DNA of 64,000 nt, from positions 748,501-812,500 of the forward strand of contig NC_014551.1 in the NCBI RefSeq assembly GCF_000196735.1. Reading direction: 5' to 3'. The translations under genes and the position numbers were made by a program. The notes under the pieces were generated by a model that saw only the letters and a program-made list of their open reading frames with translations, did not search any database and was not told where the DNA came from. Every line of letters starts with the position of its first letter. Position 1 is the first letter of the stretch. This DNA is from Bacillus amyloliquefaciens DSM 7 = ATCC 23350. GTDB taxonomy: Bacteria > Bacillota > Bacilli > Bacillales > Bacillaceae. Below, in pieces: positions 825 to 26,367 of the stretch.

Positions 825-831
825 ATTTAGG

Positions 832-858
832 TTGTCAAAAGAGAGCCCGTATTAATAT
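832..858 (+). promoter_or_regulatory. Candidate promoter of the giant collagen-like gene
   Basis: TTGTCA at 832-837 with TAATAT at 853-858 (15-bp spacer) or TATGCT at 856-861 (18-bp spacer) resembles a vegetative promoter. Neither spacing is ideal, and a sporulation sigma factor is equally possible. The ribosome site AAGGAGAGGG is at 889-898. Confidence 0.3.
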
Positions 859-909
859 GCTGTCTTAAAAAGTAAGGCTGTCTACTGGAAGGAGAGGGAA
901 AAAGATTGA

Positions 910-7161
<6,252 letters not shown>

Positions 7162-7191
7162 AAATAGCAAACTGATATTTTAAAGGTGAAA

Positions 7192-7222
7192 GGCCTGACT
7201 GATATACGGTCGGGTCTTTTTT
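7192..7222 (+). terminator. Terminator of the giant collagen-like gene
   Basis: An 8-bp stem with two G-T pairs (GGCCTGAC / GTCGGGTC) is followed by six T, 30 bp after the stop codon. Confidence 0.8.
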
Positions 7223-7304
7223 CTGTAAATGCTGTGCAGCATGCAAACTTAAAGACCAGTTGATATTTTTAAAGGGAATTTTGAAACACCATTTGTCTTT
7301 GTGA

Positions 7305-9197
<1,893 letters not shown>

Positions 9198-9228
9198 GTG
9201 AAAACGGCCAGACTGGTGTGAATCATCT

Positions 9229-9268
9229 AAGCTTGGAGAAGGTATCACTTTTTCTTCAAGCTTTTTTG
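9229..9268 (+). terminator. Terminator of the BclB-like gene
   Basis: A 12-bp stem (AAGCTTGGAGAA / TTCTTCAAGCTT, one G-T pair) is followed by a T-tract. Confidence 0.85.
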
Positions 9269-9284
9269 TTTTTTCGTCTTTCTG

Positions 9285-9319
9285 AGTAAATAAAGGCTGA
9301 CGGGAATTTCCCGACAGCC
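9285..9319 (-). terminator. Terminator of the hybrid kinase gene
   Basis: Read on the - strand, GGCTG and CGGGAA arms pair with TTCCCG and CAGCC around one mismatch, followed by TTTATTTA. It lies about 40 bp beyond the kinase stop codon. Confidence 0.65.
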
Positions 9320-9357
9320 GGCAGAAGTATTTCATCCTTCTGAAGTTAATCAGTATC

Positions 9358-12300
9358 TTAAACAGATGAAGACGTTTTTAATGAGTTTGAATCATCCGTT
9401 GTGCCGGTGATGTGAATCATCATCGAAACCGCGGTGCCTGCATCCGGTGTGCTCTCAATAGTCAATTCACTTCCGCAAAAATGCTTCAGCCGCCGATTGA
9501 TATTTTTCAGGCCGACACTGCGGTCAACATGGGAAGACAATATATCTTTTTGTATATCCGGCATGATGCCGGTTCCATTATCCTCCACTTTAATTAAATA
9601 TGTGTTTTCGCTTTGTTTTTTTGCCGTCAGCTTTACCCATCCGCCGCCTCTTTTCTTGCTGATCCCGTGATGAACGGCGTTTTCCACCAATGGCTGTATC
9701 ATTAAAGGCGGAAGGCTGAAGTCCATGTCCTCATCGATGTCAAAAAGGATTTCCAGCCGCTTGCCGAAGCGTGTTTTTTCGATAGCCAGATACGACGTAA
9801 TGATAGAAAGTTCGTTTTTGAATGAGCTGATGTCCGAAGTATTTTGAAAATCAAAACTCATTCTTAAATAGTTTGTAAATGCAGCAGTGGTTTCCCGTGC
9901 TTTTTCAATATCCAAATGACTAAGCGCGATAATCGTATTTAATACATTGTAAAGAAAGTGAGGCTTGATCTGCGACTGAAGAAATGCCATTTCCAAATTT
10001 GTGGCTTGGTGAGCCGTATGCTTCATCAAAATTAAATTTTTAATACGCGCGGTGAATTCAGAGTAATGATAAGGCTTCTGTAAAATATCATTTGCACCGA
10101 CATGAAAAGCCTTGTATTTGTCATGGCTGATTATGGCTGCCGTAACGATAAGAACCGGCAGCTCGACCATACTGAATCTTTCGCGGATATTTGTGCAGAC
10201 TTCAAATCCCGTCATGTCGGGCATCATCAAGTCTAATATCACCAAATCAAGCTTCGAGGAAGAGACAGCTTGAAGCGCTTCTTTTCCGCTTTTTACTGCG
10301 ATTACGTTATAAGGAACACCTTCAAGCATATCAGTTAAAATTTTTAAACTCTCGATGTTATCGTCGACTATCAGAATTGTCGGAGCATCGATTTTTTTTG
10401 AGTGATAAGGCGTTCTCAAAGAAATATCCGGCATTTTCTGTCCGGGCTGCGATTTAGGAAGTCCGATCTTTGCTTCCGGTAAAGAATCAATTTGAGCGGC
10501 GGGTAATGTAAAATGAAATGCTGAACCTTTCGCCTCTTCCGACTCTGCCCAGATGTCCCCGTTTTGGAGCTTGACGAGCTGTTTCACAATACTTAAACCT
10601 AAACCCGTTCCATCCTCGTTATTTCCTCCCGCTTGCTGAAAAGAATCAAAAATGGTTTCAAGATCAGCTTCAGGAATGCCGCTGCCGGTATCGGCCACGG
10701 TTATTTGAATCATGCTGTTATTCAGGCTTTCGGCAGAAAGAATAATTTTCCCCTCGGATGTATACTTGATTGCATTTTCAACAAGATTCGTTAAGATTTG
10801 CCGAAATCGGTTTTCATCTGCAAGCACAAAGGGGAGATCGTCCGGTACATGATTAAGAATGTCGAGATTTTTATGCTTGGACAAAAGCCGGTAGAAGTTC
10901 ATCTCACTGCATATTGCGGCATGCACATCAACAGGAACAGGACGAATCTGCAGCAGACCCTGCTTCATTTTTTCCAAATCAAGAATATCATTTACGAGAT
11001 TGGAAAGTCTGTAGCCCATCCTGATGATCAGCTGCATGTTTTCTTTCTCTTCCTCTATCGTCTTCTTTTTTCTGCCGGCTACAAGCGTCTGGCATATATT
11101 AATAATGCTGTTCAGCGGCGTTTTGAATTCGTGTGAAGTTTTGGCGATAAATTCATCTTTCAGCTGGTTCATTTTGACTAATTTACGTGAGAGGACTTCA
11201 TTGTCCCGGAAAGCCCCGGCGAATTGCTGCGCCATCAGAAGAACCAGTGCCAATAAAGCAATGACTGTCGGCAATGAATAAATCGAATTAAAAGAAACAG
11301 CCGTTCTGCCGCTGTAAGCTGAAATTGTCGTAAGAATCACAAAGGCGCTCATTGAAACAGATGCCAGCGTAAGGTACATGCTTCCTTTTATCTTCCGTAT
11401 GGCAGCAATCGTAAAAATATATGTAATATAAAACAAAGTCGTAACGGCAAGGACCGAATGTAAAATGTAAGAGAGGTGGTCAATAAAACTTACAGACATA
11501 AAATCAGTGACCAAGATGATCCCCGAAAAAGCAGTTAAAATGGTTATTGTCGTTTTTGACACAATTTCTCTGTATGCATAAAAGAGATAGAGAAAAACCG
11601 CAATGCTGACAAGCACGGAAGAGGTGCTGCGCAACAAATTCAGCAATGAAAATGATATAGACGGAAAGATGAGAAAGATCATTCTTTCTTTTCCGATCAT
11701 AAGAATAATCGCAGAAAAAAGCAGACACATCACAGAAAAGAACAATAAATGTTTAGCCTTTGTTCTTTGCAGAAAAAAACCGAGAAAATATAAACCGGTA
11801 ATGAAAAAAGCCGTGATCATAATGGAATCATTAAGAAAGGAAATTTGATTTTCGCGTATAATTTGTTCTTGAGTCCCAAACGTTATCGGTTTTGCGATCC
11901 CCCAGCCAGGCACTTTTCCGAAATTCGAAAATTGCAGGACAAGTTCATTATCACCCTTGTGAAGCATGAAAAAGCAAGTATACGGTTTGTTCTGAGCCTC
12001 AAAATCAGCTTTCTCTGAAGGGCTGCCGCTCTGTCCGATCAATTGTCCATTAAGATAAAGGCGGTTTGAACTGTAGATAAAAGATGTGCTGATTCCGAAA
12101 ACCTGATTCTCTTTATTTGAGCGGATTGTCAGTTTGTACGTTCCGTAATCCGTATCGGCTGTTTTTCTGAACAGCTTCACATTGACAGGGACATCAACGA
12201 GTACAGGTTTTTTTCCTTTTTCTGAATGAAGATCCCGCGGTGACAGCATTTGATTTGGATACAGAAACCACTTCCCATTCAGCTGGACATTCCCGTCCTT

Positions 12301-12444
12301 ATGAAAATCCCAATTCTTCAGATTGATCACTCCCTGTTCTGCTTTAGGGAGAGTTGTTCCGGAGAAATGATCCATGGCTATAAAAATGATAAAGAAGGCA
12401 GCGTAGCCGCAAATAATCGAAATAGAAATGAATTTTTCTTTCAC
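9358..12444 (-). CDS. Hybrid sensor kinase with 7TM-DISM-like sensor, receiver and two kinase modules
   Basis: Membrane sensor kinase of 1028 aa. An N-terminal membrane segment (residues 7-25) leads to an extracellular beta domain (about 40-200), then seven or so hydrophobic helices (about 210-410) in the 7TMR-DISM arrangement. Next is a HisKA dimerisation box with phospho-acceptor His438 (KTSHEFKTPLN) and an HATPase with GTGLGLSIV. A receiver domain follows with Asp738 (LDLMMPD). The C-terminal part is a second, LytS-type kinase with His829 (IKPHFLYN) and its own ATPase N box (LVENAVHHG). The start is GTG, 7 nt after AAAGGAG. It is divergent from the response regulator gene at 12623, its probable partner. 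The ligand is unknown; DISM sensors often sense carbohydrates or cell-surface signals. Confidence 0.85.
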   Translation of the reverse strand: MKEKFISISIICGYAAFFIIFIAMDHFSGTTLPKAEQGVINLKNWDFHKDGNVQLNGKWFLYPNQMLSPRDLHSEKGKKPVLVDVPVNVKLFRKTADTDYGTYKLTIRSNKENQVFGISTSFIYSSNRLYLNGQLIGQSGSPSEKADFEAQNKPYTCFFMLHKGDNELVLQFSNFGKVPGWGIAKPITFGTQEQIIRENQISFLNDSIMITAFFITGLYFLGFFLQRTKAKHLLFFSVMCLLFSAIILMIGKERMIFLIFPSISFSLLNLLRSTSSVLVSIAVFLYLFYAYREIVSKTTITILTAFSGIILVTDFMSVSFIDHLSYILHSVLAVTTLFYITYIFTIAAIRKIKGSMYLTLASVSMSAFVILTTISAYSGRTAVSFNSIYSLPTVIALLALVLLMAQQFAGAFRDNEVLSRKLVKMNQLKDEFIAKTSHEFKTPLNSIINICQTLVAGRKKKTIEEEKENMQLIIRMGYRLSNLVNDILDLEKMKQGLLQIRPVPVDVHAAICSEMNFYRLLSKHKNLDILNHVPDDLPFVLADENRFRQILTNLVENAIKYTSEGKIILSAESLNNSMIQITVADTGSGIPEADLETIFDSFQQAGGNNEDGTGLGLSIVKQLVKLQNGDIWAESEEAKGSAFHFTLPAAQIDSLPEAKIGLPKSQPGQKMPDISLRTPYHSKKIDAPTILIVDDNIESLKILTDMLEGVPYNVIAVKSGKEALQAVSSSKLDLVILDLMMPDMTGFEVCTNIRERFSMVELPVLIVTAAIISHDKYKAFHVGANDILQKPYHYSEFTARIKNLILMKHTAHQATNLEMAFLQSQIKPHFLYNVLNTIIALSHLDIEKARETTAAFTNYLRMSFDFQNTSDISSFKNELSIITSYLAIEKTRFGKRLEILFDIDEDMDFSLPPLMIQPLVENAVHHGISKKRGGGWVKLTAKKQSENTYLIKVEDNGTGIMPDIQKDILSSHVDRSVGLKNINRRLKHFCGSELTIESTPDAGTAVSMMIHITGTTDDSNSLKTSSSV

Positions 12445-12478
12445 ATCATTACTCCTTTATCCCATTCAGGGTCATTCT

Positions 12479-12508
12479 ATTATCCTATTCAATGTATAAA
12501 TATTGTAA
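12479..12508 (-). promoter_or_regulatory. Candidate promoter of the hybrid kinase gene
   Basis: On the - strand TTACAA (12503-12508) and GATAAT (12479-12484) are 18 bp apart and sit 35 bp upstream of the GTG start. This is a reasonable SigmaA match, read by eye. Confidence 0.4.
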
Positions 12509-12570
12509 TCCTAAACTTCATAAAACAACAAGAGAAAGAAAAAGAATCCAACTATATAGGGCGTTGGGCA

Positions 12571-12579
12571 TGGTATAAT
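12571..12579 (+). promoter_or_regulatory. Extended -10 promoter of the response regulator gene
   Basis: TGGTATAAT is a perfect TATAAT with the extended TGn element, 44 bp upstream of the start codon. The -35 region is weak, which is usual for extended -10 promoters and suggests activator help. Confidence 0.6.
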
Positions 12580-12622
12580 TGAAATTATTTTCAGATATCT
12601 ATATTGACGGGTGGGATGCGTT

Positions 12623-13699
12623 TTGAAAGCGATAATTGTGGATGACGAGGAATTGGCATTGCTTCATTTTAATCATATGCTTGAGCGGACAAACGCCTTT
12701 CAATCTATTTTAATGTTTCAAGATCCGGCGGACGTTCTGGAGTATTCGGGGCTTTCAGCAGCTGATGCGGTGTTTCTTGACATTGAAATGCCCGGGATAA
12801 ACGGTATTGAGCTTGCTGAATCAATTCAGGCAATTAATGAAAATATTCAAATTATTTTTATCACCGCTTATAATGAATTCGCTATAAAAGCGTTTGAGTT
12901 AAATGCTGTTGATTATCTTTTAAAACCGGTTGACAATGCCAGGCTGCTGACAACCGTTGAGCGAATCCGAATGAATAAAAAGCTCAGGACGGCAGACGAA
13001 AACACCGGGACGGATTATTTTATACAATGTTTTGGAAACCTGGACTTTTATCAATCGTTAAATGGTGTCAAAACATACATAACAGTCAAGTGGAGAACAT
13101 CCAAAGCGCGTGAACTGTATGCATTTTTACTTCTTAATCAAGGGCGCACGGTCAGTAAAGACATGCTGATTGAGATGTTTTGGCCTGCTTATGAAGTTTC
13201 AAAAGCGAGCACTCAGCTCTACTCGACAATATATCAGATACGGAAATTAATCAGTCAGCTTCCCTTCAGCCAATCCATAGAAAATACCGATATAGGATAT
13301 ATTCTTCGGCTTTCAGGGGTAAAGGTTGATACAGTTGACTGGGAAAATACATTAAAAGAAGCTCCCCCGCTCAGTCAAGCCGCATTAACCCGGCACATGG
13401 ACATTGTCATGTCATATGAGAACCATTATCTGATGGAGAATGGCTACCTGTGGGCGGAGCCGGAAAAAACACGTCTGGCGCATCTGTGGCTCAGCAAGGC
13501 GTACGAACTGATTGATTTTCTCATTCAAGAAAAGAACGAGCATCAAGCAATGGACGTTTGCCTGCAGGTCGAGAAAATAGAGCCCCGTGACGATAAAATT
13601 ATACAATACAAACTGCAGTTATTTAATCAATTGGGAAAAGTAGAAGAGGCGATAAAAGAATATGAACGCTATAAACAAGTGAAGGACTGGACCGGCTGA
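12623..13699 (+). CDS. Response regulator with LytR/AlgR-type receiver and SARP-like output
   Basis: DNA-binding response regulator of 358 aa. The receiver (residues 1-120) has the acidic pair at the start (VDDEE), phospho-acceptor Asp53 (FLDIEMPG) and the conserved Lys in LLKPVD. Its sequence is of the LytR/AlgR kind. Instead of a LytTR domain it carries a winged-helix region (about 140-215, with WP and TIYQIRKLI motifs) and a bacterial transcriptional activation (BTAD/SARP) domain up to the C-terminus. I place the start at TTG 12623 because GGTGGG lies 7 nt upstream and the protein then begins LKAIIVDDEE, the normal receiver start. The GTG at 12611 has no ribosome site. The divergent kinase is its likely partner and the adhesin gene downstream a likely target; both are inference. 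Confidence 0.85.
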   Translation: MKAIIVDDEELALLHFNHMLERTNAFQSILMFQDPADVLEYSGLSAADAVFLDIEMPGINGIELAESIQAINENIQIIFITAYNEFAIKAFELNAVDYLLKPVDNARLLTTVERIRMNKKLRTADENTGTDYFIQCFGNLDFYQSLNGVKTYITVKWRTSKARELYAFLLLNQGRTVSKDMLIEMFWPAYEVSKASTQLYSTIYQIRKLISQLPFSQSIENTDIGYILRLSGVKVDTVDWENTLKEAPPLSQAALTRHMDIVMSYENHYLMENGYLWAEPEKTRLAHLWLSKAYELIDFLIQEKNEHQAMDVCLQVEKIEPRDDKIIQYKLQLFNQLGKVEEAIKEYERYKQVKDWTG

Positions 13700-13714
13700 T
13701 GCCGGTCTTTTTTT
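13690..13714 (+). terminator. Terminator of the response regulator gene
   Basis: A perfect 7-bp stem GACCGGC / GCCGGTC with a 4-nt loop is followed by seven T. It overlaps the stop codon. Confidence 0.9.
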
Positions 13715-13749
13715 GTGCGTTATTTCTGAAATGATCCTATGTACAGAAT

Positions 13750-13828
13750 TTGTATAGGTCGATTTCATACAATGTAGTTTGGTTCGGATAAGGAGAATCC
13801 CATGCTTACGGGCTTGTTCGAACGTAAG
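13750..13828 (+). promoter_or_regulatory. Inverted repeats upstream of the adhesin gene
   Basis: Two imperfect palindromes lie in the adhesin leader: TTGTAT / ATACAA at 13750-13755 and 13767-13772, and CTTACG / CGTAAG at 13805-13810 and 13823-13828. The first overlaps a possible -10 (TACAAT, 13768-13773). Either could be a binding site for the nearby response regulator, but nothing in the sequence proves this. Confidence 0.3.
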
Positions 13829-13855
13829 TCTATATAAAAGGGGAGGAATAAGACA

Positions 13856-16800
13856 TTGGGAGTGAGGAACTTTTCGTTCAGCCCGCAAAAAAGCAAAAGG
13901 CTGAGAACAGCATTGATCACATGCTTCACGCTGTTTTTCATCTTCAGCCAAGTTGTCAGCTTTACTCCGATCGCAGCCGCTTCCGGATCGCAGCTAAGCG
14001 AGAGCGGATTCTTTGATTCAGTCACGGTCAAAGACGGCAAACATCAGACCGTTGACGGATCAAAAGGCAGTGAGCCGGCTTTAGCACCGAAAGATGAAGT
14101 GACACTGACATACGAATGGTCTCTGAAAAACAAGGAAGATGCAAGTGACCGAAATATCACCTTAAAGATCCCTGAAAGTTTTACATTAGATAACGATATC
14201 GAAGGTGAGCTGAAATCAGCTGATCGGGTGATCGGTATATATAAAGCTGAAGCAAAAAGCAGCACTCTTGAGGTGAAAGTGAACAAGGAAAAGGCGGAGG
14301 CCGATGATGTCAAAGGCTCCATTACACTGCCGGCGAAGTTTACACCTGACGTAACAGATAAAACGAAAACGGCAAAAGCTCTTTTTCAACTGGACGCCGG
14401 CAAGACCCAGCAGGTGATCATACCTGTGAAGAAAGATGAGACAACGAATTCCGAAACAGAAAAAAACACCTCTTCAAAACCTGCTGAACCTCAGGAAGAA
14501 GCAGAGAAAAAGTCAACATCTGCAGACAGCAGGGATAAGAAAGAACAGACAACGAAATCAAGCCCTTCTGCTGAACGCAATCAATCAAAAATGGTGATTT
14601 CAAGCAAATCTGCTGTTAAAAGTCTTCAATCAGGCGGAAGCCAGATTACGCAAAATATTTTAACTGATGTGAAATTGACGGATGAAAAAGGAAAACCATT
14701 TGACAAAAACAACCGTGCGAATACGAATTCTCCGGCAAATATCACCATTCAATGGGCGATCCCGAATGAGCTGGGGAAAACAATAAACGACGGTGATCGA
14801 TATGAATTTGACCTGCCTAAAGAATTTATCATGCACAATGACATTACGAACCAGCCATTGACCAACGGCGACATGACGTACGGAACTTTTTCCATTAATA
14901 CGAGCGGCCATGTCATCATGACGTTTAACGGCGAGGTAAAAGAAGATTTTAATGTCAAAGGGTCATTGTATGTAAACACCCAATTCAATCAGAAAGAAAT
15001 AAAAGGGTCAACCACACAAAAGATTAAGTTTCCGGTTAACTCTGATACCCCGGAAGTAACGGTTTATTTTAAACCGAATGTCACTAAAACCATTGATAAA
15101 TCAGGGTCATTGGATAAAGGCATTAACCCCGGAAAGGTAACGTGGACGGTTGATCTTAATAAAAAGGAAGAAGAAGTCAAAAATGTGAAATTGACGGAAA
15201 GTCTTCCGGACGGTTTGACCTTCCGCTCTGTGAAAGTGTATGAACTCGATGTGAATATTGACGGCTCGGTGAGTCAAGGAAGTGAGATAACGTCAGGCTA
15301 TACCGTCGACGACAAAGGAAATGTCACATTCGCCGGGACGATTGATTCAGCCTATCGGCTCATCTATGACACAGTTATTGATGACGATGCAAAGCCTGCT
15401 AAAGGCGGAAATATCACGCTGACAAACAAGGCGGCATTCAGCGGGGATAATGCGGAGCCGATTTCTGCGGAAGCCTCCGTAACGGCGGGCTACGGAAAAA
15501 TGATTGAAAAATCTTCGACCGGTTATAAAGGGGAAACCCAAACGTTCAGCTGGGCTGTTATGTACAATTACGGTGAGAAAAAGATTGATCAATCCAAAGC
15601 CGGCATCAAGGATACGTTCGGATCAGACGATCTGCACCTTGTTCCCGGATCTTTGAAAGTCCTTCCGATTACATTCAGCCAAAACGGCAGCGAACAAGAA
15701 GGCGCCCCATTAAAAGAAGGCGGGGATTATACGCTGACTGATAACGGGAACGGCTTTGAGATCAAATTCAAGCAAACTGTCACAGGAGCATATAAGATCA
15801 ATTATCAATCTCAAGTCAACGATGGGGTCATTATTGACAGTCCTGTCAAATACACCAACACAGCAGTTACAGATACGGGGGAATCAAAGGAAACTCCGGG
15901 GACAGCCATTCAGCAGAATCTGATCAAAAATTATTCAAACGCAGACTATGAGAAGAAGACGGTTGATTGGACAATCACAATCAATAAAAACCGTTACACA
16001 ATGAAAGACTGGACTCTGGATGATCAATTCACCAGCGGAGGTCTGGCGCTCATTGATGATTCATTTCACATGCAAGATACGACTGAGAACAAAACGCTGA
16101 AAGAAGGAACAGATTATACAATAACAAAAAAACCCGGAAATCAAGGCTTTACAATAGCATTGATCGGGGATTACGCAGAAACAAACAGTCAGTTTAAGAT
16201 CACGTATACGACAAAATTCAACACTGACTTTTCTAATGAAAACATCAAGAATACGGCGGAGTCGACATGGACCGATCAAAATGGCGGCAAACGCACAAAT
16301 AAGGAATCGAGCGGCTTCACACCGAACAATCAGACTTCCCATAACGGATTCAAAAACGGCTCATACAACGCCGTTTCAAAAGAAATCACATGGAAAGTCG
16401 GCATCAATTACAATGGCGAACCTTCAAAGAATCCTTATATAAAAGATACGCTAACAGATGGTCAGCAATTTTTGCACGGGTCGGTTGCCGTCAAAAAGTA
16501 CACCATCAGTAAAAACGGTTCCATCACTGAAGGAGAGGCGCTGGATCCTTCGAAATACGAAGTGGAAGAACCGTCAGACGGCAACAAAAATACATTAACC
16601 GTACATCTTAAAACAGAGGACTCTGTACCATATCTGATTGAATTCAAAACGTCACTGAAAGGTCAGGTCATTAAACAGAATCAATACACAAACAAAGCAG
16701 AGTACTATAATGATGACCATGCAGACCGAACGTTGACGGGTTCAGTATCAATCGCAAACGGCGGAAACCTGGTTTCTAAAGGCGGTAAACAGAGCGGGAA

Positions 16801-19768
16801 CTATATCGATTGGAACATCAATGTCAATGCCAGCCAATCGACACTGGATGACGTAAAAGTCAAAGACACCCCAGATGAGAACCAAATAATAGATGAAGAT
16901 TCTTTTAAAGTATATCAAGCAAAATATGATGAGAACGGCGTTATGAAAGACAGCAGTGGAAACCTTGCTGCGGGTGATGTGCAGCTTGAGAAAGATAAGG
17001 ACTATAAATTAGATGTTAAAACCGACAATGCCACCGGTGAACAATCATTTGTCCTCACCTTTACAGGCAGCTATAAACAAATAGACCGTGCGTATGTCAT
17101 ACAATATCGTTCTCTCATTAATATTTCCGGCAGCAGCGGTCAGGTCAACAACAAAGTATCAATATCAGGGACAAGTGTTAAGGAGCAGACCCAGGAGAAT
17201 AACAGCTCAGTGCTTGTCGCCATTTCAAGCGGCGGCGGTTCAGGATCAGGAGAGAAGGGAAGCATGACGATATCCAAAACAGGATCAGACGGTGCATCTC
17301 TTCCGGGAGCAGATTTTCAATTATGGTCTAAAGACGGCAAGCAGCTGCTGCGTTCAGGCACAACAGATGAAGCCGGTAAACTTACGTTTGGGAATATCCG
17401 TTACGGAACCTACGTACTGAAAGAAATAAAAGCGCCGGACGGCTACACCATCAGCGACGCCTATGTAAACGGGGTCCTTGTAACGGTCGACAGTAAATCC
17501 TCCGGGGCGGGTGCTCCCTACAAAGTCATAAATCAAAAAAATAAGGTGACGCTTATCAAAAAAGACGAAAACAACAATCCTTTGGCTGGTGCCGTATTTA
17601 AGCTGGAGAAAAAATCAAGCGACGGTACCTATACATTAATAAGAAGTAATATTGAAAGCGATAAAAACGGGAAGGTTGAAATAAACGGTTTGCCAGCGGG
17701 GTACTACCGACTGATGGAGACGAAAGCTCCTTCAGGGTTTATCGTGAACACAAAAGCGATTCACTTCTCAGTCGCAAAGAACGAAAAGAATCAAGTGCCT
17801 GATGTTGAATTGGGATCAATGGTTAATTATCAAGGAAAAGCCGCTTTAACGAAGGAAGATGCGGAAGGCCGGAAGCTTGAAGGTGCAGTCTTCAAAATCA
17901 TCGACAAGGAAGGAAAAACGGTTCAGAAAGATCTGGTTTCAGATCAGGACGGCAAAGTAGAGACTTCCGGACTTGCACCCGGACATTACGCCTTCATTGA
18001 AACAAAAGCGCCAGCCGGTTATGTGTTAAACACGGAGAAAAAAGAATTTACCATCTCAGAATCGGCAGAAGGAAAGCCGAAGCCGTCTGACGCAGGAACG
18101 GCCGTCAACTATAAAGGCTCTGTTCAGCTGACGAAGGAAGATGCGGAAGGCCGGAAACTTGAAGGTGCAGTCTTCCAGATTATCGATCAGGATGGAAAAA
18201 CAGTTCAAAAAGATCTGGTTTCAGATCAGGACGGAAAAGTAGAAACATCCGGACTTGCACCGGGGCGTTACGCCTTCATCGAAACAAAAGCGCCAGCCGG
18301 TTATGTGTTAAATACGGAGAAAGTGGAGTTTACGATCTCAGAATCAGCAGAAGGAAAGCCGAAGCCGTCTGACGCAGGAACGGCCGTCAACTATAAAGGC
18401 TCTGTTCAGCTGACGAAGGAAGATGCGGAAGGCCGGAAACTTGAAGGTGCAGTCTTCCAGATTATCGATCAGGATGGAAAAACAGTTCAAAAAGATCTGG
18501 TTTCAGATCAGGACGGAAAAGTAGAAACATCCGGACTTGCACCGGGGCACTACGCTTTTATCGAAACAAAAGCGCCAGCCGGTTATGTGTTAAATACGGA
18601 GAAAGTGGAGTTTACGATCTCAGAATCGGCGGAAGGAAAGCCGAAGCCGTCTGACGCAGGAACGGCCGTCAACTACAAAGGCTCTGTCCAGCTGGTCAAG
18701 AAGGATCAAGACGGAAATGTTTTAGACGGTGCAGTATTCAAAATCACTGACAGTGATGGAAAAACTGTAAGAGACGATCTGATGACAAAAGAAGGCGGCA
18801 AGATTGACGCCGACGGTTTGGCACCGGGAAGCTATCAATTTGTTGAAAAACAAGCACCGGATGGTTATCTGCTGTCAACAACACCTGTGCCGTTTACGAT
18901 TAAGGCTGAGAACAGCGGAAAACCGGATCAGGCTGTCCTGACTGCAGTTAACATCAAGAACAGTGTTGTTCTCACAAAATTCGATCAAGACGACAAACGG
19001 AAAGTCCTGAAAGATGCAGAGTTCAAACTGACAGATGCAAACGGCAAAGTGCTGACAGAGGGTCTGACTACAGATCAGCACGGGCGGATTATTGTGCGGG
19101 GACTGAAAGCGGGCGAATATCAATTTATCGAAACAAAAGCGCCTGAACTTTACAGTTTGGATCAAACGCCAATATCATTCAAGGTTACAAATACCGACAT
19201 AAAACCAATCGAAATCAGTGCGAAGAACAAATTAACACCTGGCGATGTAACACTGACAAAAGTGGATCATGACGATAAAAATAAGGTGTTAGAGGGTGCT
19301 GAATTCAAGATAACAGATTCCGGCGGACATCCGGTAAACACCGGCGGAACCAGCGAAAAACGGCCGGCGTTATGGAAAACGGATAAAAAGGGACAGTTTA
19401 CGGTGAAAGGTTTAGCCCCGGGACAGTACCGATTTATCGAAACAAAAGCGCCTGACGGCTATCAGCTGAACGAAAAACCAATTGAATTCACAATTGAAAA
19501 AGGACAGTCAAAAGCTGTTGAAGTTGTCGTTTCGAATAAGAAATTAAAAAATCCCGCACTTGGGAAAGACACACCGAATCATCAAACGAAGCAAGGCGGG
19601 CATCACCCTGATACCAATGGTAATGCCAATCATCCGGATACAGGCAAAAGCCTGCCGAAAACCGGTGATACGGACGGTATGATGCAGGTGACGGCCGGTA
19701 TTCTGCTGCTCTTAGCCGGCGGAGCCGCGGCTCTTGTATCAAGAAAGAAGAAGGCAAGAAATAGATAG
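13856..19768 (+). CDS. LPKTG-anchored multi-domain adhesin (Cna/SpaA type)
   Basis: Cell-wall anchored adhesin of 1970 aa. A signal peptide (residues 1-43, basic start, long hydrophobic core) is followed by one Ig-like adhesin domain, a Ser/Thr/Lys-rich linker (about 195-250), and an array of Cna collagen-binding-like domains (about 265-1125) recognisable by recurring VTWTVDLN, DWTITIN and ITWKVGIN strands. After a Gly/Ser linker come eight SpaA/Cna-B-type domains (about 1135-1900), each with an early Lys and an E-T/K-KAPxGY strand of the kind that forms isopeptide bonds. The sorting signal LPKTG is at residues 1933-1937, followed by a membrane segment and a KKKARNR tail. The start is TTG with GGGGAGG 9 nt upstream. 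A sortase gene follows directly. Collagen binding is not implied; plant or other surfaces are as likely. Confidence 0.9.
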   Translation: MGVRNFSFSPQKSKRLRTALITCFTLFFIFSQVVSFTPIAAASGSQLSESGFFDSVTVKDGKHQTVDGSKGSEPALAPKDEVTLTYEWSLKNKEDASDRNITLKIPESFTLDNDIEGELKSADRVIGIYKAEAKSSTLEVKVNKEKAEADDVKGSITLPAKFTPDVTDKTKTAKALFQLDAGKTQQVIIPVKKDETTNSETEKNTSSKPAEPQEEAEKKSTSADSRDKKEQTTKSSPSAERNQSKMVISSKSAVKSLQSGGSQITQNILTDVKLTDEKGKPFDKNNRANTNSPANITIQWAIPNELGKTINDGDRYEFDLPKEFIMHNDITNQPLTNGDMTYGTFSINTSGHVIMTFNGEVKEDFNVKGSLYVNTQFNQKEIKGSTTQKIKFPVNSDTPEVTVYFKPNVTKTIDKSGSLDKGINPGKVTWTVDLNKKEEEVKNVKLTESLPDGLTFRSVKVYELDVNIDGSVSQGSEITSGYTVDDKGNVTFAGTIDSAYRLIYDTVIDDDAKPAKGGNITLTNKAAFSGDNAEPISAEASVTAGYGKMIEKSSTGYKGETQTFSWAVMYNYGEKKIDQSKAGIKDTFGSDDLHLVPGSLKVLPITFSQNGSEQEGAPLKEGGDYTLTDNGNGFEIKFKQTVTGAYKINYQSQVNDGVIIDSPVKYTNTAVTDTGESKETPGTAIQQNLIKNYSNADYEKKTVDWTITINKNRYTMKDWTLDDQFTSGGLALIDDSFHMQDTTENKTLKEGTDYTITKKPGNQGFTIALIGDYAETNSQFKITYTTKFNTDFSNENIKNTAESTWTDQNGGKRTNKESSGFTPNNQTSHNGFKNGSYNAVSKEITWKVGINYNGEPSKNPYIKDTLTDGQQFLHGSVAVKKYTISKNGSITEGEALDPSKYEVEEPSDGNKNTLTVHLKTEDSVPYLIEFKTSLKGQVIKQNQYTNKAEYYNDDHADRTLTGSVSIANGGNLVSKGGKQSGNYIDWNINVNASQSTLDDVKVKDTPDENQIIDEDSFKVYQAKYDENGVMKDSSGNLAAGDVQLEKDKDYKLDVKTDNATGEQSFVLTFTGSYKQIDRAYVIQYRSLINISGSSGQVNNKVSISGTSVKEQTQENNSSVLVAISSGGGSGSGEKGSMTISKTGSDGASLPGADFQLWSKDGKQLLRSGTTDEAGKLTFGNIRYGTYVLKEIKAPDGYTISDAYVNGVLVTVDSKSSGAGAPYKVINQKNKVTLIKKDENNNPLAGAVFKLEKKSSDGTYTLIRSNIESDKNGKVEINGLPAGYYRLMETKAPSGFIVNTKAIHFSVAKNEKNQVPDVELGSMVNYQGKAALTKEDAEGRKLEGAVFKIIDKEGKTVQKDLVSDQDGKVETSGLAPGHYAFIETKAPAGYVLNTEKKEFTISESAEGKPKPSDAGTAVNYKGSVQLTKEDAEGRKLEGAVFQIIDQDGKTVQKDLVSDQDGKVETSGLAPGRYAFIETKAPAGYVLNTEKVEFTISESAEGKPKPSDAGTAVNYKGSVQLTKEDAEGRKLEGAVFQIIDQDGKTVQKDLVSDQDGKVETSGLAPGHYAFIETKAPAGYVLNTEKVEFTISESAEGKPKPSDAGTAVNYKGSVQLVKKDQDGNVLDGAVFKITDSDGKTVRDDLMTKEGGKIDADGLAPGSYQFVEKQAPDGYLLSTTPVPFTIKAENSGKPDQAVLTAVNIKNSVVLTKFDQDDKRKVLKDAEFKLTDANGKVLTEGLTTDQHGRIIVRGLKAGEYQFIETKAPELYSLDQTPISFKVTNTDIKPIEISAKNKLTPGDVTLTKVDHDDKNKVLEGAEFKITDSGGHPVNTGGTSEKRPALWKTDKKGQFTVKGLAPGQYRFIETKAPDGYQLNEKPIEFTIEKGQSKAVEVVVSNKKLKNPALGKDTPNHQTKQGGHHPDTNGNANHPDTGKSLPKTGDTDGMMQVTAGILLLLAGGAAALVSRKKKARNR
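17828..18673 (+). repeat. Three near-identical 282-bp (94-aa) adhesin repeats
   Basis: Three tandem units of exactly 282 bp begin at 17828, 18110 and 18392, each coding for one SpaA-type domain plus a conserved Gly-Lys-Pro-Lys-Pro linker. The second and third are nearly identical at DNA level. Such repeats allow domain number to change by recombination. Confidence 0.85.
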
Positions 19769-19776
19769 ACGTTACC

Positions 19777-19813
19777 GCACCTGATCATGTAAGAATCGAT
19801 CAGGTGCTTTTTT
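19777..19813 (+). terminator. Terminator between adhesin and sortase genes
   Basis: A perfect 10-bp stem GCACCTGATC / GATCAGGTGC is followed by six T. It would lower sortase expression relative to the adhesin unless there is read-through, because no clear promoter is seen in the 65 bp that follow. Confidence 0.85.
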
Positions 19814-19877
19814 AAAACGAAAGTCATTTCACAACAAGTACCCATCCCGTATTATGTACAAGAAAGGAATTTTCTTC

Positions 19878-20531
19878 ATGTTTAAAAAAACGATCATTGC
19901 TGTTCTGATTCTATCCGGGCTGCTTCTTGTCACCTCTCCTCTCATGAAAGGGTGCCTTATCGCTTACCTCAGTAAAAGCCATAGTGAAGCTGAATTGACC
20001 GCAGAACAGGCGCGGAAAAACAACATGAAAAAAGCGGATTATGCATTTGATTCAATTCATCCTCCCGGTTTTAGGGAAACCGTTCAGTCGAGTTTTAACC
20101 GCAAACCGAAACCGATAATCGGACGGATCACCATCAGCAGCGTCAATTTGGAGCTCCCGATTTTAAAAGGCACAACCAATGAAAACCTGCTGATCGGCGC
20201 GGCAACTATGCGGCCGGATCAGAAAATGGGAGAGGGAAACTACCCGTTGGCTGGTCACCATCTGAGGCAGGAGAACCTATTGTTCGGCCCTCTTTTACAC
20301 ATAAAAAAAGGCGCGCAAATCGTAATTACCGATTTTAGAAAAGACTATATTTATTCTGTAACATCAAAAAGCACGATTTCAGAAATAGAAGCAAACATAA
20401 TTCAGGAGACAAAAGAAAAAGAGATTACTTTAATCACATGTGACAAAGCGGTAAATACCGAAGGACGTCTGGCCGTCAAAGGAAAGTTGATTGATATTGC
20501 CGGTCATTCAAATGTATCTCAGCCATCTTAG
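19878..20531 (+). CDS. Class A-like sortase, partner of the adhesin
   Basis: Membrane-bound transpeptidase of 217 aa. An N-terminal membrane anchor (residues 5-25) precedes the sortase fold. The catalytic triad is visible: His127 in LAGHHL, Cys188 in TLITC, and Arg197 in EGRLAVKG. The TLITCD context and the LAGHH box resemble class A sortases, which use LPxTG substrates, so the LPKTG adhesin immediately upstream is the obvious substrate. The start at 19878 is preferred because AAGGAA lies 8 nt upstream; the ATG at 19854 has no ribosome site. A housekeeping sortase for LPDTA-type proteins such as YfkN must be encoded elsewhere. Confidence 0.85.
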   Translation: MFKKTIIAVLILSGLLLVTSPLMKGCLIAYLSKSHSEAELTAEQARKNNMKKADYAFDSIHPPGFRETVQSSFNRKPKPIIGRITISSVNLELPILKGTTNENLLIGAATMRPDQKMGEGNYPLAGHHLRQENLLFGPLLHIKKGAQIVITDFRKDYIYSVTSKSTISEIEANIIQETKEKEITLITCDKAVNTEGRLAVKGKLIDIAGHSNVSQPS

Positions 20532-20576
20532 AGAATCATTCTGTCAACTGGATATACGTCAGTAATTAAACTTCCC

Positions 20577-20604
20577 GAGACTGGCTTCTGTCAGTCTCTT
20601 TTTT
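20577..20604 (+). terminator. Terminator of the sortase gene
   Basis: A 9-bp stem (GAGACTGGC / GTCAGTCTC, one G-T pair) with a 4-nt loop is followed by six T. Confidence 0.85.
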
Positions 20605-20772
20605 GCACAGCGGTTATAAAAAGGTCGTCCTGCTTATCTCTCTTGAGGAAAATGATACCTATCGCACTTTTTTACAGGAATTACAAGAGAAAAAGATCAC
20701 GAAAATTCATAAAAATGAGAAATAAAGATTTGAAAAGTGGTATCATTTTAGGAGGAAAGGACGGCTGGTGCT

Positions 20773-22377
20773 GTGTTGGAAGAGAAGCGGTTTTATGTCT
20801 CTCTGCAAATGAAAATAGCCGGATTAATCACGGCTTTATTAATACTTGTCATCGGAACGCTCACCGTTATATTTGCTTTTCAGCAATTAAATGAAGGGCA
20901 GAAGCAGGCTGAACAGCTGGCGGTGCAAACAGCAAAAACCATTTCTTACATGCCGCCTGTAAAAGAGGCATTCCGGCTTGCGGACGAAGGTGCTTTTACA
21001 AAGTTAGACGTCATTGAACAAATGAAAGAACAGGCAGGTGCGCACGCCGTCTACATTACTGATCAAAAAGGGCATGTTGCATTTCATTCGGCCCGCAGCA
21101 GCATCCCAAAAGAAAATCAAAATCTGCAAAATAAAACCGTTATGTTCGGCGGATCTCCGGTTTCCGATGGAATGAAAGCCGTCCGGGGAAGCGCGCCGGT
21201 TATTCTGGATGAAAAAAATCATAACGAAGTCGTCGGAACGGTGACAGTCGAGTTTTTACAAGATGAGATAGAAAAAGATATGAAAGCGCATCTGCGGCAT
21301 TTGGGCTATTTTGCATGTTTGGTATTTCTTATCGGTATCGGGGGAGCGGCGGCACTCGCAAAAAGCATCCGTAAAGATACACTCGGCCTTGAACCGCATG
21401 AAATTGCAGCGCTGTATCGGGAGCGCAATGCGATGCTCCTTGCGATTAAAGAAGGAATTATCGCCGTAAACAAAGAGGGCGCGATAACGATGATGAATTT
21501 ATCCGCGGCTGATATGCTGCATCTTCCGGAGCCGATGATCGGAAGGCATATAAAAGAAATCATGCCCGGCGCAAAGCTCATGCCGGTTTTGTCAGGGGGA
21601 GAAGTGCCGCCGAATGTTGAGGTGCGTGCCGGAGATAAAGTATTCATCTTAAACGTGAAAGAAATGAGGCAGGCCGGGCAAGTATACGGAGCGGTCATAA
21701 GCTTCCGCGAAAAAACGGAGCTCAAAAAGCTGATTAACAAGCTGACCGAAATGAAAAAATACTCGGAGGATCTGCGGGCGCAAACGCATGAATTCTCGAA
21801 TAAGCTTTACGCGATACTCCGTCTGTTAGAGCTGGGAGAATACGAGGAAGCCATTGAACTGATTAAAGAAGAGTATGCCATCCAAAATGAACAGCATGAA
21901 ATCCTATTTCAAAACATTCATTCCCAGCGTGTTCAGGCCATACTATTAGGAAAAATGGGAAAAGCCTCTGAGAAAAAAGTGAAGCTCTCGATAGATGAAA
22001 ACAGCTTTTTAGAGTCGCTGCCGGAGCATGTGGGTTCATCCCAGCTCATTACGATCATCGGAAATCTTATTGATAACGCTTTTGACGCCGTCGCCGAAAA
22101 AGAGAAAAAAGAGGTTGCCTTTTTTATGACCGATATCGGCAGGGATATCGTCATAGAAGTGGCGGACTCAGGGGACGGCGTGCCTCAGGAAAAAACAGGA
22201 ACGATATTTGAAAAGGGATACTCTTCAAAGGGGACAAGGAGAGGATACGGCTTAGCCAATCTGAAGGAAGCCGTCAGTGAATTGCAGGGATGGATAGAGA
22301 TTTCACAGCAAAAGAGCGGCGGTGCCGTATTTACGGTGTTTATACCGAAAGAAAGGCCAAAGGGGGAATCCGTGTGA
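20773..22377 (+). CDS. citS: Citrate sensor histidine kinase CitS
   Basis: Membrane sensor kinase of 534 aa, about the length of B. subtilis CitS. Two membrane segments (about residues 13-35 and 178-196) flank an extracellular PAS-like sensor. A cytoplasmic PAS region is followed by a DcuS/CitA-type phospho-acceptor box with His339 (AQTHEFSNKL) and an HATPase with NLIDNAFDA and GYGLANL. CitS senses citrate and, through CitT, turns on the Mg-citrate transporter citM, which lies downstream. The start is GTG at 20773 with AAAGGA about 10 nt upstream; a stronger AGGAGG lies further up. The stop overlaps the start of citT. Confidence 0.92.
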   Translation: MLEEKRFYVSLQMKIAGLITALLILVIGTLTVIFAFQQLNEGQKQAEQLAVQTAKTISYMPPVKEAFRLADEGAFTKLDVIEQMKEQAGAHAVYITDQKGHVAFHSARSSIPKENQNLQNKTVMFGGSPVSDGMKAVRGSAPVILDEKNHNEVVGTVTVEFLQDEIEKDMKAHLRHLGYFACLVFLIGIGGAAALAKSIRKDTLGLEPHEIAALYRERNAMLLAIKEGIIAVNKEGAITMMNLSAADMLHLPEPMIGRHIKEIMPGAKLMPVLSGGEVPPNVEVRAGDKVFILNVKEMRQAGQVYGAVISFREKTELKKLINKLTEMKKYSEDLRAQTHEFSNKLYAILRLLELGEYEEAIELIKEEYAIQNEQHEILFQNIHSQRVQAILLGKMGKASEKKVKLSIDENSFLESLPEHVGSSQLITIIGNLIDNAFDAVAEKEKKEVAFFMTDIGRDIVIEVADSGDGVPQEKTGTIFEKGYSSKGTRRGYGLANLKEAVSELQGWIEISQQKSGGAVFTVFIPKERPKGESV

Positions 22378-23054
22378 TTAACATCGCGATTGCAGAGGAC
22401 GACTTTCGAATAGCGCAAATCCATGAAAAATTTATCGAACATCTGGATGGGTTCAATGTCATCGGCAAAGCAATCAACGCCAAAGACACCTTATCTCTGC
22501 TTGAGAAACAGCAGCCTGATCTGCTGCTATTGGATATTTATATGCCGGATGAGCTGGGAACAGATCTGCTCCCGCTCATCCGCCGCCGTTTTCCTTCCGT
22601 TGATATCATTATTATTACGGCTTCTGCTGAAACAAGGCTGCTGCAGGAAGCGCTCAGATCAGGCGTTTCCCACTATGTCATAAAACCGGTTTCGGCACGT
22701 AAATTTACAGATGTGCTTTTGCAGTACCGTGAAAAAAGAGAATGGCTGCACTCACAGCCGGAGCTGAGCCAATCCGTAATCGACATGTTTTTCGGAAGCA
22801 GTCAGAAAGAACAAAAACAGCTCAGTGATCTGCCGACAGGCATTAACTCTATTACCCTTCAAAAAATCAAAAACGCGCTCCGGACTGCCCAAAAAGGGAT
22901 GACGGCTGAAGAGCTGGGCGAAAAAATGGGCGCCTCCAGAACAACGGCGCGGCGCTACGCCGAGTTTCTCGTTTCTCGGGAAGAAGCGCTCGCTGAATTA
23001 GAATACGGCATTATCGGCAGGCCGGAACGAAAATATTATTTAGCACATGAATAA
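22374..23054 (+). CDS. citT: Citrate response regulator CitT
   Basis: Response regulator of 226 aa with a receiver domain (acidic pair AEDD at the start, phospho-acceptor Asp54 in LLDIYMPD, Lys in VIKPVS) and a C-terminal helix-turn-helix (about residues 165-215, GASRTTARRYAEFL). The CitB/DcuR family it belongs to activates di- and tricarboxylate uptake genes. The GTG start overlaps the citS stop by 4 nt (GTGA) and has a GGGGG ribosome site 8 nt upstream, so the pair is translationally coupled. In B. subtilis CitT activates citM. Confidence 0.93.
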   Translation: MINIAIAEDDFRIAQIHEKFIEHLDGFNVIGKAINAKDTLSLLEKQQPDLLLLDIYMPDELGTDLLPLIRRRFPSVDIIIITASAETRLLQEALRSGVSHYVIKPVSARKFTDVLLQYREKREWLHSQPELSQSVIDMFFGSSQKEQKQLSDLPTGINSITLQKIKNALRTAQKGMTAEELGEKMGASRTTARRYAEFLVSREEALAELEYGIIGRPERKYYLAHE

Positions 23055-23066
23055 GGGATGGGAGAA

Positions 23067-24029
23067 ATGAAGCGGTTTGGAGTGCTTCTTATTATGCTTG
23101 CGGCGCTGGTTTCTTTGGACGGACGGCAGATGGCGGGCATCCGCTCAGCCGGGGGACCGATTGAAATTGTCGTACCCGCAGCGCCTCAAGGGGGCTGGGA
23201 TGTAACGGCAAAGGCTTTGCAATCAGTAATAGAGCGGAAACATATTTTGGGACGGCCTGTAAAGATCGTCTATAAGCCCGGCGGAGGCGGAGACAGCGGG
23301 TGGAAATACGTGAATGAACGAAAAACGGATGTCATCAGTATGAATTCAAGCCTGCTGTTAAGCAATGAAATCTTGGGCCAAAGCCGGCTGAAGGCAGCTG
23401 ATTTTACGCCCTTGGCCATTATCGCAAAAGAGTGGCAGACTGTCGCTCTTCCGAAAAATTCAAAGATAAAAAGTGGGAAGCAGCTGCTCGGTGCTATTAA
23501 AACACATCCGGGCGGCATAAAAATCGGATTTGCGCCAGGTCTTGGAAATGATGACCAGCTCTCCTTTGCGAGAGCCGCGGAAATGGCCGGAATTTCTCCG
23601 TTTGATATCCGCTTTTTTCAATACGGGAGCAGCAATGAGGTTATTGAAGCGCTTATCAGTCACGATATAGATGCCGCCTCAATGACCATTTCAGAAGCGA
23701 GAGCCGCCTATCAGAAGGGAAAAATCACATTAGCGGCCGTTACTTCTGACAAAAGGCTCTCCGGCTTTAGCGATGTCCCGACCTGGAAAGAGCAAGGGGT
23801 GCCGTTTGTCTTTGCGCACTGGAGGGGCATCATGGGGCCGAAAGACATGACCGAAGGCGAGATCGCTTATTGGGATCAGGCTTTGAAACAGATTACCTCA
23901 TCCGCGGAGTGGAAGCAAATGATGAAAAAACGGGATTGGGAGAGCTTTTATAAAAACAGCAGCGGCGCAAAACGCTTTTTAGAAGAGCAGACTGAGTTTT
24001 ATAAAGAGATGATGAGCAGCGAAAAATAA
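23067..24029 (+). CDS. yflP: TctC-type solute-binding protein YflP
   Basis: Extracellular solute-binding protein of 320 aa in the tripartite tricarboxylate (TctC/Bug) family, recognised by the [16 protein letters not shown] start of the mature protein and the GGGGDSGW loop. A short signal peptide (residues 1-19) lacks an obvious lipobox. The start at 23067 is used with AAGGGA 8 nt upstream; the ATG at 23058 is an alternative. It follows citT by 12 bp in the same operon, so it probably presents citrate or a related acid, perhaps to the sensor since no TctA/TctB partners are nearby. That last point is inference. Confidence 0.85.
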
Positions 24030-24031
24030 GG

Positions 24032-24059
24032 ATTCCGCAGACTTGCGGAATGCTTTTTT
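24032..24059 (+). terminator. Terminator of the citS-citT-yflP operon
   Basis: A perfect 8-bp stem ATTCCGCA / TGCGGAAT is followed by six T. Confidence 0.88.
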
Positions 24060-24191
24060 ATTTATAAATGAACAAAATGATCAAAAAGGTTATAAAAAAT
24101 TAAAAATCTTTAAAATCCAAAATATTTACTTCATTATGCAATTCTCATAAGATAGCAAAAAGGCAGATAAAGGGGAATCGGGCCTTTAAAA

Positions 24192-24205
24192 TGTAAGCGT
24201 ATTCA
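24192..24205 (+). promoter_or_regulatory. CcpA site (cre) upstream of citM
   Basis: TGTAAGCGTATTCA matches the cre consensus TGWAANCGNTNWCA at all but one fixed position and lies 18 bp before the citM start. citM of B. subtilis is under carbon catabolite repression, so a functional cre is expected here. Confidence 0.65.
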
Positions 24206-24223
24206 TGATAAGGGGGACATACT

Positions 24224-25522: not shown

Positions 25523-25570
25523 CATAAAACATCCGCTTCGTCGCACACTAAAGGCATCAGAGGAGGTGCC

Positions 25571-26367
25571 ATGATGAGTGATCCGTTTATGCCGCTCTTT
25601 TCATTGAAAAGCGGTGTCGGTTTTAAAGCGGCGGACGGTGTTTACGGGCTGACCGTCCAGATTGCGAATGTTTACTTTATCGAAAATCCCTCAGCTCCGG
25701 GGGAAATCATTCTGGTTGACGCGGGAATGCCGCAATCAGCGGAGATGATTACAGAAGAAATGAAACGCCGGTTCGGAGATGGGTATCAGCTGAAGGCGGT
25801 CATGCTGACGCACGGCCATTTTGACCATGTCGGAGCGATTGAAGAGCTGCTTGAAATGTGGGATGTGCCGGTTTATATTCATGAACAGGAGCTTCCGTAC
25901 GTGACGGGAAAAGCGGATTATCCGCCTGCCAGGCCCGATGCGAAAAAAGGGCTTGTCGCAAAGCTGTCGCCGCTGTTTCCGCGCCATGCGATCCGCATTC
26001 CGTCCGTTCAGACCCTGCCTTCAGACGGCACCGTTCCGTTTCTTGAAGAATGGAAATGGGTGCATACGCCCGGCATACGCCCGGCCATATTTCTTTTTTT
26101 CGGCAAAAAGACCGCGTTCTGCTTGCCGGTGATGCCGTCATCACTGTTGAACAGGAATCGCTTGCGGACGTTGTCATTCAAAAGCAAGAGCTTCACGGCC
26201 CGCCGGCGTATTTCACAGCGGATACGCAGACTGCGGCAGCATCCGTCCGGAAACTGGCCGAACTGGAGCCGGAAGCGCTTTTGACGGGTCACGGAATTCC
26301 GATGACGGGCAAAAACTACCGTGAGGATTTGCTTACATTGGCTGAAAAACTGCATTCCGTTTTGTAA
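25571..26367 (+). pseudogene. yflN: Frameshifted metallo-beta-lactamase-fold hydrolase yflN
   Basis: The sequence codes for a metallo-beta-lactamase-fold protein of about 265 aa if repaired. The metal-binding motif THGHFDH is intact (about residue 80), but a single base is missing after position 26074. The family motif HTPGHTPGH should be encoded there and a C appears lost from the second CCCGGCCAT copy. Downstream, the other frame continues cleanly to 26367 with the expected GDAV and TGHG motifs. The actual product would be a 237-residue protein with a wrong C-terminus lacking ligands. The start has GAGGAGGTG upstream. It is either a true lesion in a GC-rich near-repeat or a sequence error. 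It follows citM, so a role in citrate growth is possible but unknown. Confidence 0.85.

Follow-up and report, generated by a model that had tools for sequence, protein, structure and literature searches.

A likely exchangeable module of sensor kinase, response regulator, wall adhesin, and sortase in Bacillus, with a predicted operator before the adhesin gene

Results

The window analyzed here is a stretch of 64,000 nucleotides from the chromosome of Bacillus amyloliquefaciens DSM 7 (= ATCC 23350; assembly GCF_000196735.1, contig NC_014551.1, positions 748,501 to 812,500), and coordinates refer to it unless a locus is named. At 9358 to 20531 it carries a hybrid histidine kinase (HK) gene on the minus strand and, on the plus strand, genes for a response regulator (RR), an LPKTG wall adhesin, and a class A-like sortase. 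Judged from sequence comparison, the kinase/regulator sensor very likely controls the adhesin gene. A preliminary description of the window had proposed this control from adjacency, and it is now supported by a predicted operator of fixed geometry that recurs beyond the genus and follows the RR family. The four reading frames were present side by side as that description gave them, and its domain assignments were borne out by the Pfam scan, NCBIfam, and matches to solved structures.

Among 44 Bacillus genomes, the RR was found in 13, and the full-length HK, the adhesin (at least 70% identity over the first 1200 residues), and a close sortase occurred in the same 13. One further genome, the B. 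subtilis 168-like G004, held a C-terminal HK fragment and a sortase fragment, and more distant sortases (38 to 43% identity) were present in G001, G021, and G043. In the co-occurrence survey that the preliminary description had suggested, the four genes stood together in 13/13 carriers in a single order (HK divergent from RR, adhesin, and sortase) and were never found apart save for the one scar. Chance adjacency was rejected, as order and adhesin length were kept in all loci except L053, where the adhesin is broken into two frames, and L050, where it is shorter (1875 amino acids [aa]). Named carriers among the matches listed were B. velezensis NRRL B-41580, B. mojavensis, B. swezeyi, B. spizizenii, B. 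glycinifermentans, and B. inaquosorum; the scan of named genomes gave at least 80 loci, and 22 of these 80 were examined. The expectation that such a module would be unusual for this species group did not hold, with the module in 13 of the 44 genomes, a related adhesin in another 11, and the adhesin/YwpE pair noted for a gut strain in a passage of PMC3569322.

A hairpin followed by a T run, visible in the aligned loci, forms a predicted intrinsic terminator that overlaps the RR stop codon (13689 to 13708, plus strand); a promoter of its own is therefore probable for the adhesin gene. The DNA between RR and adhesin differed strongly among loci in length and sequence, except for a block of about 50 bp that was nearly invariant in 13/13 loci and contained TGTWCAG, four bases, TGTATAG, ten bases, and TACAAT. 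In the window, the block (13740 to 13773) comprises the predicted RR operator TGTACAG-N4-TGTATAG (13740 to 13757, plus strand), a direct repeat with an 11-bp period found by comparison of loci, and, exactly 10 bp past it, a −10-like box, TACAAT (13768 to 13773, plus strand), read off the sequence. The form TGTWYAG-N4-TGTWYAG lay 10 bp ahead of the −10 box before the adhesin in all 13 loci, and no −35 hexamer was recognizable by reading 16 to 18 bp from that box. SARP-type operators are likewise built of directly repeated heptamers that occupy the −35 position with a period of 11 bp. The comparative evidence for this operator site is strong, and the site falls inside the interval (13715 to 13855) in which the preliminary description had proposed to map regulator binding. 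About 16 bases 3′ of the −10 box (13774 to 13789, GTAGTTTGGTTCGGAT) hardly varied within the genus; the Sporolactobacillus-type loci do not share this conservation.

In the genome of the window, TGTAYAG-N4-TGTAYAG had one exact match, the predicted operator itself, and three matches with one mismatch, while at two mismatches its count of 64 was close to the 60 of the reversed control. From the single exact site, a dedicated regulator is probable. Between HK and RR, the best matches had 4 to 8 mismatches on either strand, which is background, and autoregulation of the pair through the same operator was rejected. A pattern restricted to Bacillus, TGTWCAGN3TTGTATAG, gave a single match per genome in the 13 carriers, as its construction ensures, and also matched 2 of the 31 genus genomes that lack the RR (once in G016 and twice in G057); G016 had no site for the composite of repeat and −10 part, G057 was outside the composite-site search, and these matches were read as chance.

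Activation is the sign of control that we infer, because the −35 box is missing and the geometry resembles that of the Pho box and SARP operators. It is unlikely that the RR binds the operator to repress or merely tune the adhesin gene while another activator induces it. The comparative data speak for conservation of the site rather than for the sign of its effect, and the 16 to 20 bases past the −10 box that are nearly invariant within the genus could be the site of a second protein. However, a repeat that occupies the −35 place and whose distance to the −10 box is exactly 10 bp in different genera is the layout of activators of the PhoB and SARP kind.

A search of 397 genomes of the order, in which each genome's 5 best candidates were scored, gave RR relatives (E <= 1e-30) in 60 genomes and in 37 of 135 genera. 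The best-scoring hits outside the genus, from 74 hits in the 60 genomes, gave 40 case loci; G202:C38 (two hits) and G333:C1:648572 were skipped, and second hits on G136 and G333 lay in stretches already taken. Controls were 32 stretches of the same contigs, 50 to 60 kb away, with 8 case loci having none because the contig was too short. Of the stretches of up to 20 kb around the 40 relatives, 26 encoded an LPXTG protein of at least 300 aa, 15 encoded a sortase, and 31 encoded an HK-like kinase; the respective numbers for the 32 controls were 1, 0, and 0 (Fisher p 1.8e-8 for LPXTG), so that chance adjacency was rejected here as well. The case loci are not independent, since 7/40 came from one family (f15), 6 of them with an LPXTG gene, which leaves 20/33 without that family; the named Sporolactobacillus loci may also duplicate species among the other case loci.

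Upstream of the LPXTG genes at these loci, the composite pattern was present within 2 of 17 mismatches in 20/27 and exactly in 10, against 0.11% of shuffles and 0/501 upstream regions from control stretches. The figure of 20/27 is partly tuned, because the first look (28 loci) used TGTAYAG-N4-TGTAYAG, and only afterward did the pattern, on the same loci, gain its −10 part and the W at position 4. With the 14 positions fixed beforehand, 15/27 were within 2 mismatches (shuffles, 0.39%; control upstreams, 6/501). Only a linker of 4 worked, with 20/27 at a spacer of 10 and at most 2/27 for any other linker. L198 was dropped from the 27 (its adhesin reached the edge of the fetched stretch), and L193, L204, and L215 (clustered LPXTG genes) and L184 and L187 (whose adhesin the first rule missed) were outside the set from the start; entering L193, L204, and L215 as misses gives 20/30, and L184 has an exact site ahead of an MPATG protein.

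Across the order, 35 exact composite sites were found in 29 genomes, namely, in 21/60 genomes with an RR relative and 8/337 without. After removal of the 22 RR-bearing genomes used to derive the pattern, the proportions were 9/38 and 8/337 (p 6e-6). The downstream gene was read at 26 of the 27 sites of RR-bearing genomes (G129:C34 was left out), and it encoded a sorting-signal protein at 13; among these, one protein has MPATG and one site lies at a distance of 13 kb from the RR. At 2 more sites, it encoded a giant protein extending past the end of the stretch. A Gram_pos_anchor survey of the 60 genomes served as background only. Some exact sites of RR-bearing genomes (L301, L302, L303, L319, and L216) precede non-LPXTG genes or are separated from the RR by more than 500 kb; these are further targets or chance matches.

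Several of these counts weigh against control of the adhesin by the RR as a general rule. By the rule used, 14/40 relatives had no LPXTG gene in the stretch, 39/60 RR-bearing genomes had no exact composite site, and 11/26 sites did not precede an LPXTG or giant protein. Among the 27 adhesin upstreams, 5 showed no match (5 to 8 mismatches), and in 2 more the match was weak (3 mismatches). Additionally, the scoring of genomes as lacking the RR is a lower bound, as it covered each genome's 5 best candidates. Thus, with 14/40 loci lacking LPXTG and 39/60 genomes lacking the exact site, not every member of the RR family serves a nearby adhesin.

The related adhesin in another 11 of the 44 Bacillus genomes (about 2050 aa, 34 to 35% identity) was accompanied by neither HK nor RR orthologues in the same search. 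In the five of these loci that were fetched (L320 to L324), a sortase of 200 to 204 aa followed the adhesin. Ahead of the adhesin stood a divergent gene whose product has about 503 aa and which is split in one locus; in the two scanned, it belonged to the Mga family. The adhesin-sortase pair is thus kept while the type of regulator is exchanged, which fits the divergent neighbor as the regulator. In two of the five (L322 and L324), an operator-like weak match (3/17 mismatches) lay 59 bp upstream of the adhesin and may be chance or a relic; the other three showed 5 to 6 mismatches.

That weak match, together with the composite sites in 8/337 genomes lacking the RR, would fit a repeat that belongs to another conserved regulator, the kinase pair being a mere neighbor in a surface-gene island. 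We regard this as very improbable. The 8 sites are near chance, because the 397 genomes contain 5 sites for the reversed pattern. At each of the 8, the next gene in the sequence read was other than an LPXTG gene. The site follows the RR instead, with 24 of the 27 sites within 20 kb of its gene.

The module was found at three or more chromosomal places: by citS (the window and L050), within a fabZ-mscL region that resembles B. subtilis ywp (L051 to L054), and between two major facilitator superfamily (MFS) transporter genes (L055 to L059 and L061), with the L060 copy lying between a homologue of one of these transporter genes and citM. Its G+C content (HK, 0.411; RR, 0.415; adhesin, 0.446; sortase, 0.425) was lower than that of citS-citM (0.476) and of the window to their right (0.472). 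On both grounds, the earlier remark that the module interrupts the gene order is fair.

In the fabZ-mscL/ywp place, G004 retained HK residues of about 739 to 1025 and sortase residues of about 91 to 220. By its position beside ywpE, we take the kinase fragment to be ywpD. A primer for the ywpE start, published in a part of PMC3222306, matches G004 exactly. With both fragments kept and the primer matching, ywpE and the adjoining kinase fragment (L062, 6733 to 8221) are, as read from the sequence, the two ends of a deleted module copy. In a passage of PMC8092201, strain 168 is reported to lack the gene upstream of ywpE altogether, together with the first 81 to 82 codons of ywpE itself. A functional YwpE with Cna-type collagen-binding proteins was described in 2013 for the B. 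subtilis gut strain BSP1 (PMC3569322, in part). YwpE/ywpD of strain 168 and the YwpE-Cna pair of BSP1 represent the same locus, of which the 168-like genome retains the two ends only. The passages of PMC3569322, PMC8092201, and PMC3222306 concerned do not mention the kinase, the regulator, or the operator, and the word ywpD is absent from the main text of the first and third, as far as these sources were available.

The HK (1028 aa; 9358 to 12444, minus strand; called from the open reading frame, Pfam, and an alignment of 13 orthologues) consists, from the N terminus, of a helix, an extracellular jelly roll (about residues 46 to 192), a probable seven-transmembrane region, HisKA (H438) with HATPase, a receiver (D738), and a second, LytS-type His_kinase (H829) with HATPase. 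Pfam reported HisKA, HATPase_c (two stretches), Response_reg, and His_kinase, the kinase and receiver domains above cutoff, and 7TMR-DISM_7TM just below it (28.3 versus 29). H438, D738, and H829, whose roles were assigned from known motifs, were invariant in 13/13 orthologues. The ectodomain has the fold of the sugar-binding jelly roll of glycoside hydrolase family 2 (GH2). On the basis of this fold, it is possibly a sugar sensor. The chances seem evenly divided between this and a kinase that senses something other than carbohydrate (wall stress, a peptide, or redox state), with the jelly roll as a scaffold. Some Sporolactobacillus-type loci have two tandem hybrid kinases beside one RR (L077, 3674 to 9820; L078, 3667 to 9815; L185, 10858 to 17075), which suggests two signals into one regulator.

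The RR (362 aa; 12611 to 13699, plus strand, divergent from the HK; called from the open reading frame, Pfam, and alignment) has a Response_reg domain (PF00072, 81.3 bits) with an invariant D57, a winged-helix Trans_reg_C domain (PF00486, 29.4 bits; cutoff, 26.2), and a C-terminal part, in a SARP/SAPR-like layout. Its start codon is uncertain, as orthologues often start four codons downstream. Response regulators of the SARP/SAPR type are built as REC-wHTH-BTAD (COG3947), and the C-terminal part may be a BTAD. Against that label, Pfam found no BTAD in the RR at E 1e-3, and the only relevant structure match, to EmbR, was weak (E 0.016) and covered the winged-helix part.

The adhesin (1970 aa, TTG start; 13856 to 19768, plus strand; called from the open reading frame, Pfam, and structure matches) contains Big_8, Collagen_bind (5 stretches), SpaA (8 SpaA/CnaB-type stretches), and Gram_pos_anchor, with a signal peptide recognized by eye and a C-terminal sorting signal, LPKTGD, that terminates all 13 Bacillus orthologues. 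It matched the collagen adhesion protein 6fwv (E 7.7e-22). With its Big_8/Collagen_bind region, CnaB-type stalk, and LPXTG anchor, it has the makeup of a Cna-type MSCRAMM and may bind collagen. NCBIfam NF033902 names it a SpaH/EbpB-type major pilin (188.5 bits; cutoff, 95); a pilus is not favored, because the sortase misses the class C cutoff and is closest to class A. A relation to the pLS20 adhesin was also rejected, since pLS20 has no sortase gene according to a passage of PMC8092201.

The sortase (225 aa; 19854 to 20531, plus strand; called from the open reading frame, Pfam Sortase, and alignment) is the orthologue of intact YwpE. Its start is uncertain, the second Met often being the start in orthologues. 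By eye and alignment, it has an N-terminal membrane helix and no C-terminal one. Its motifs are AGHH and TLITC (TLVTC or TLMTC in some orthologues), and H135/H136, C196, and R205, the catalytic His, Cys, and Arg, were invariant in 13/13. Of 58 matching solved structures, the best 18 (E <= 8.4e-26) were split evenly between entries whose title gives class A, SrtA, or sortase A and entries with no class in the title (9 each), while the first titled class C followed at 1.5e-10 and the first titled sortase B at 1.6e-5; some further sortase A structures scored just about 1e-9. The protein was below the NCBIfam cutoffs for class C (62.4 versus 160 bits) and class D (41.1 versus 165 bits). Intact YwpE orthologues thus look class A, contrary to the class D label in a passage of the review PMC12445088.

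The gap of 85 bp between adhesin and sortase contains an inverted repeat, GCACCTGATC / GATCAGGTGC, followed by TTTTTT (19777 to 19807, plus strand), with a visible counterpart in 13/13 aligned loci; it is absent from the list of the terminator scan, which permitted loops of 3 to 8 only. As a terminator, it would hold the sortase transcript below that of the adhesin. Coregulation of the sortase is weakly supported, because its gene has no operator of its own and lies behind this repeat, and this detracts from a fully shared control of the module. The sortase might accordingly have a weak constitutive promoter past the terminator, leaving the adhesin alone under signal control, which we consider a possible but rather doubtful arrangement. 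The repeat in all 13 loci and a promoter-like match at 19828 to 19855 fit it; however, promoter-like matches in the region were at chance level (22 found versus 21.1 expected), and the gap is just 85 bp. The route to sortase expression that we propose is readthrough from the adhesin gene.

The genome carrying the window is one contig of 3,980,199 bp with two sortases in total. Two of its proteins exceed the curated LPXTG cutoff, the module adhesin and a YfkN-like nucleotidase (43071 to 47384) with the sorting motif LPDTAT, so that the module has a sorting motif and a class A-like sortase of its own. The best match of the sortase in the plasmid collection had about 43% identity (Listeria); a recent plasmid source was thus not seen in that collection. 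An Rfam scan of 7000 to 26000 at gathering scores returned no match, and RNA-based control was rejected on that basis. Directly left of the module are three consecutive collagen-like repeat genes (58 to 9197; 246, 2083, and 621 aa), the product of 621 aa matching Pfam Collagen; the G+C content there is 0.543, above the rest.

Discussion

Taken together, the module is probably a self-contained, exchangeable cassette in which a kinase relay switches the adhesin gene through the operator. The membrane kinase would sense an extracellular cue through its jelly-roll domain of the family 2 glycosidase kind, and phosphate would pass through the two kinase cores to the RR, a phosphorelay suggested by the conservation of H438, D738, and H829 of the HK and D57 of the RR. 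The phosphorylated RR would bind TGTWYAG-N4-TGTWYAG at the −35 place, 10 bp from the −10 box, and recruit RNA polymerase to the adhesin gene. Some transcripts would pass the conserved terminator into the sortase gene, and the sortase would anchor the LPKTG adhesin while YhcS presumably serves the other sorting motif. In a 168-like genome, a deletion from the end of the kinase gene to the end of the sortase gene would have left ywpE and the kinase fragment.

The adhesin with a functional YwpE was already known in 2013 (PMC3569322, in part), and the module is not rare in the genus. No description of the regulator link or the operator was found in searches of the open-licence PMC literature, outside which most subscription papers lie.

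The module can be set beside three further known systems.

Streptococcal pilus and adhesin islands (the FCT region with RofA/Nra, and Mga) have a divergent stand-alone regulator. Like them, the module is an exchangeable block of wall-anchored surface protein, own sortase, and divergent regulator, and an Mga-type version is present in Bacillus; unlike them, it has a two-component relay, a single-protein adhesin, and a class A-like sortase instead of a class C pilin polymerase. Pho box and SARP operators (PhoB, AfsR, and DnrI) are 7-bp direct repeats with an 11-bp period that replace the −35 box. The predicted operator shares repeat length, period, and position with them, but its sequence is TGTWYAG and its targets are wall adhesins. 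In Clostridioides difficile, sortase substrates are handled by a class B sortase, and their production is reportedly under cyclic di-GMP control (PMC4591827). Signal-controlled production of sortase substrates is common to both, whereas the module uses a kinase/regulator pair, and to our knowledge, the C. difficile locus has none.

What had been a guess from adjacency is now a testable set of regulator, operator, and target for an uncharacterized adhesin of bacilli that are used as biocontrol agents and probiotics. The module also accounts for ywpE of B. subtilis 168, a short "sortase," and for the kinase fragment next to it as the ends of a deleted copy, and the operator supplies a search pattern for pairing wall adhesins with their sensors across Bacillales. 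There may be a Bacillales-wide class, for and against which the present comparisons seem balanced, in which a two-core kinase, with a GH2-type ectodomain that may bind sugar, and a SARP-like RR would convert a polysaccharide cue into production of a giant LPXTG adhesin, or of a few such proteins, by way of a shared operator, TGTWYAG-N4-TGTWYAG-N10-TANNNT. If the sensor reads polysaccharide, it would be a direct link from recognition of host or plant surfaces to adhesion, and if the class is real, a single exchangeable cassette would combine sensing with adhesion.

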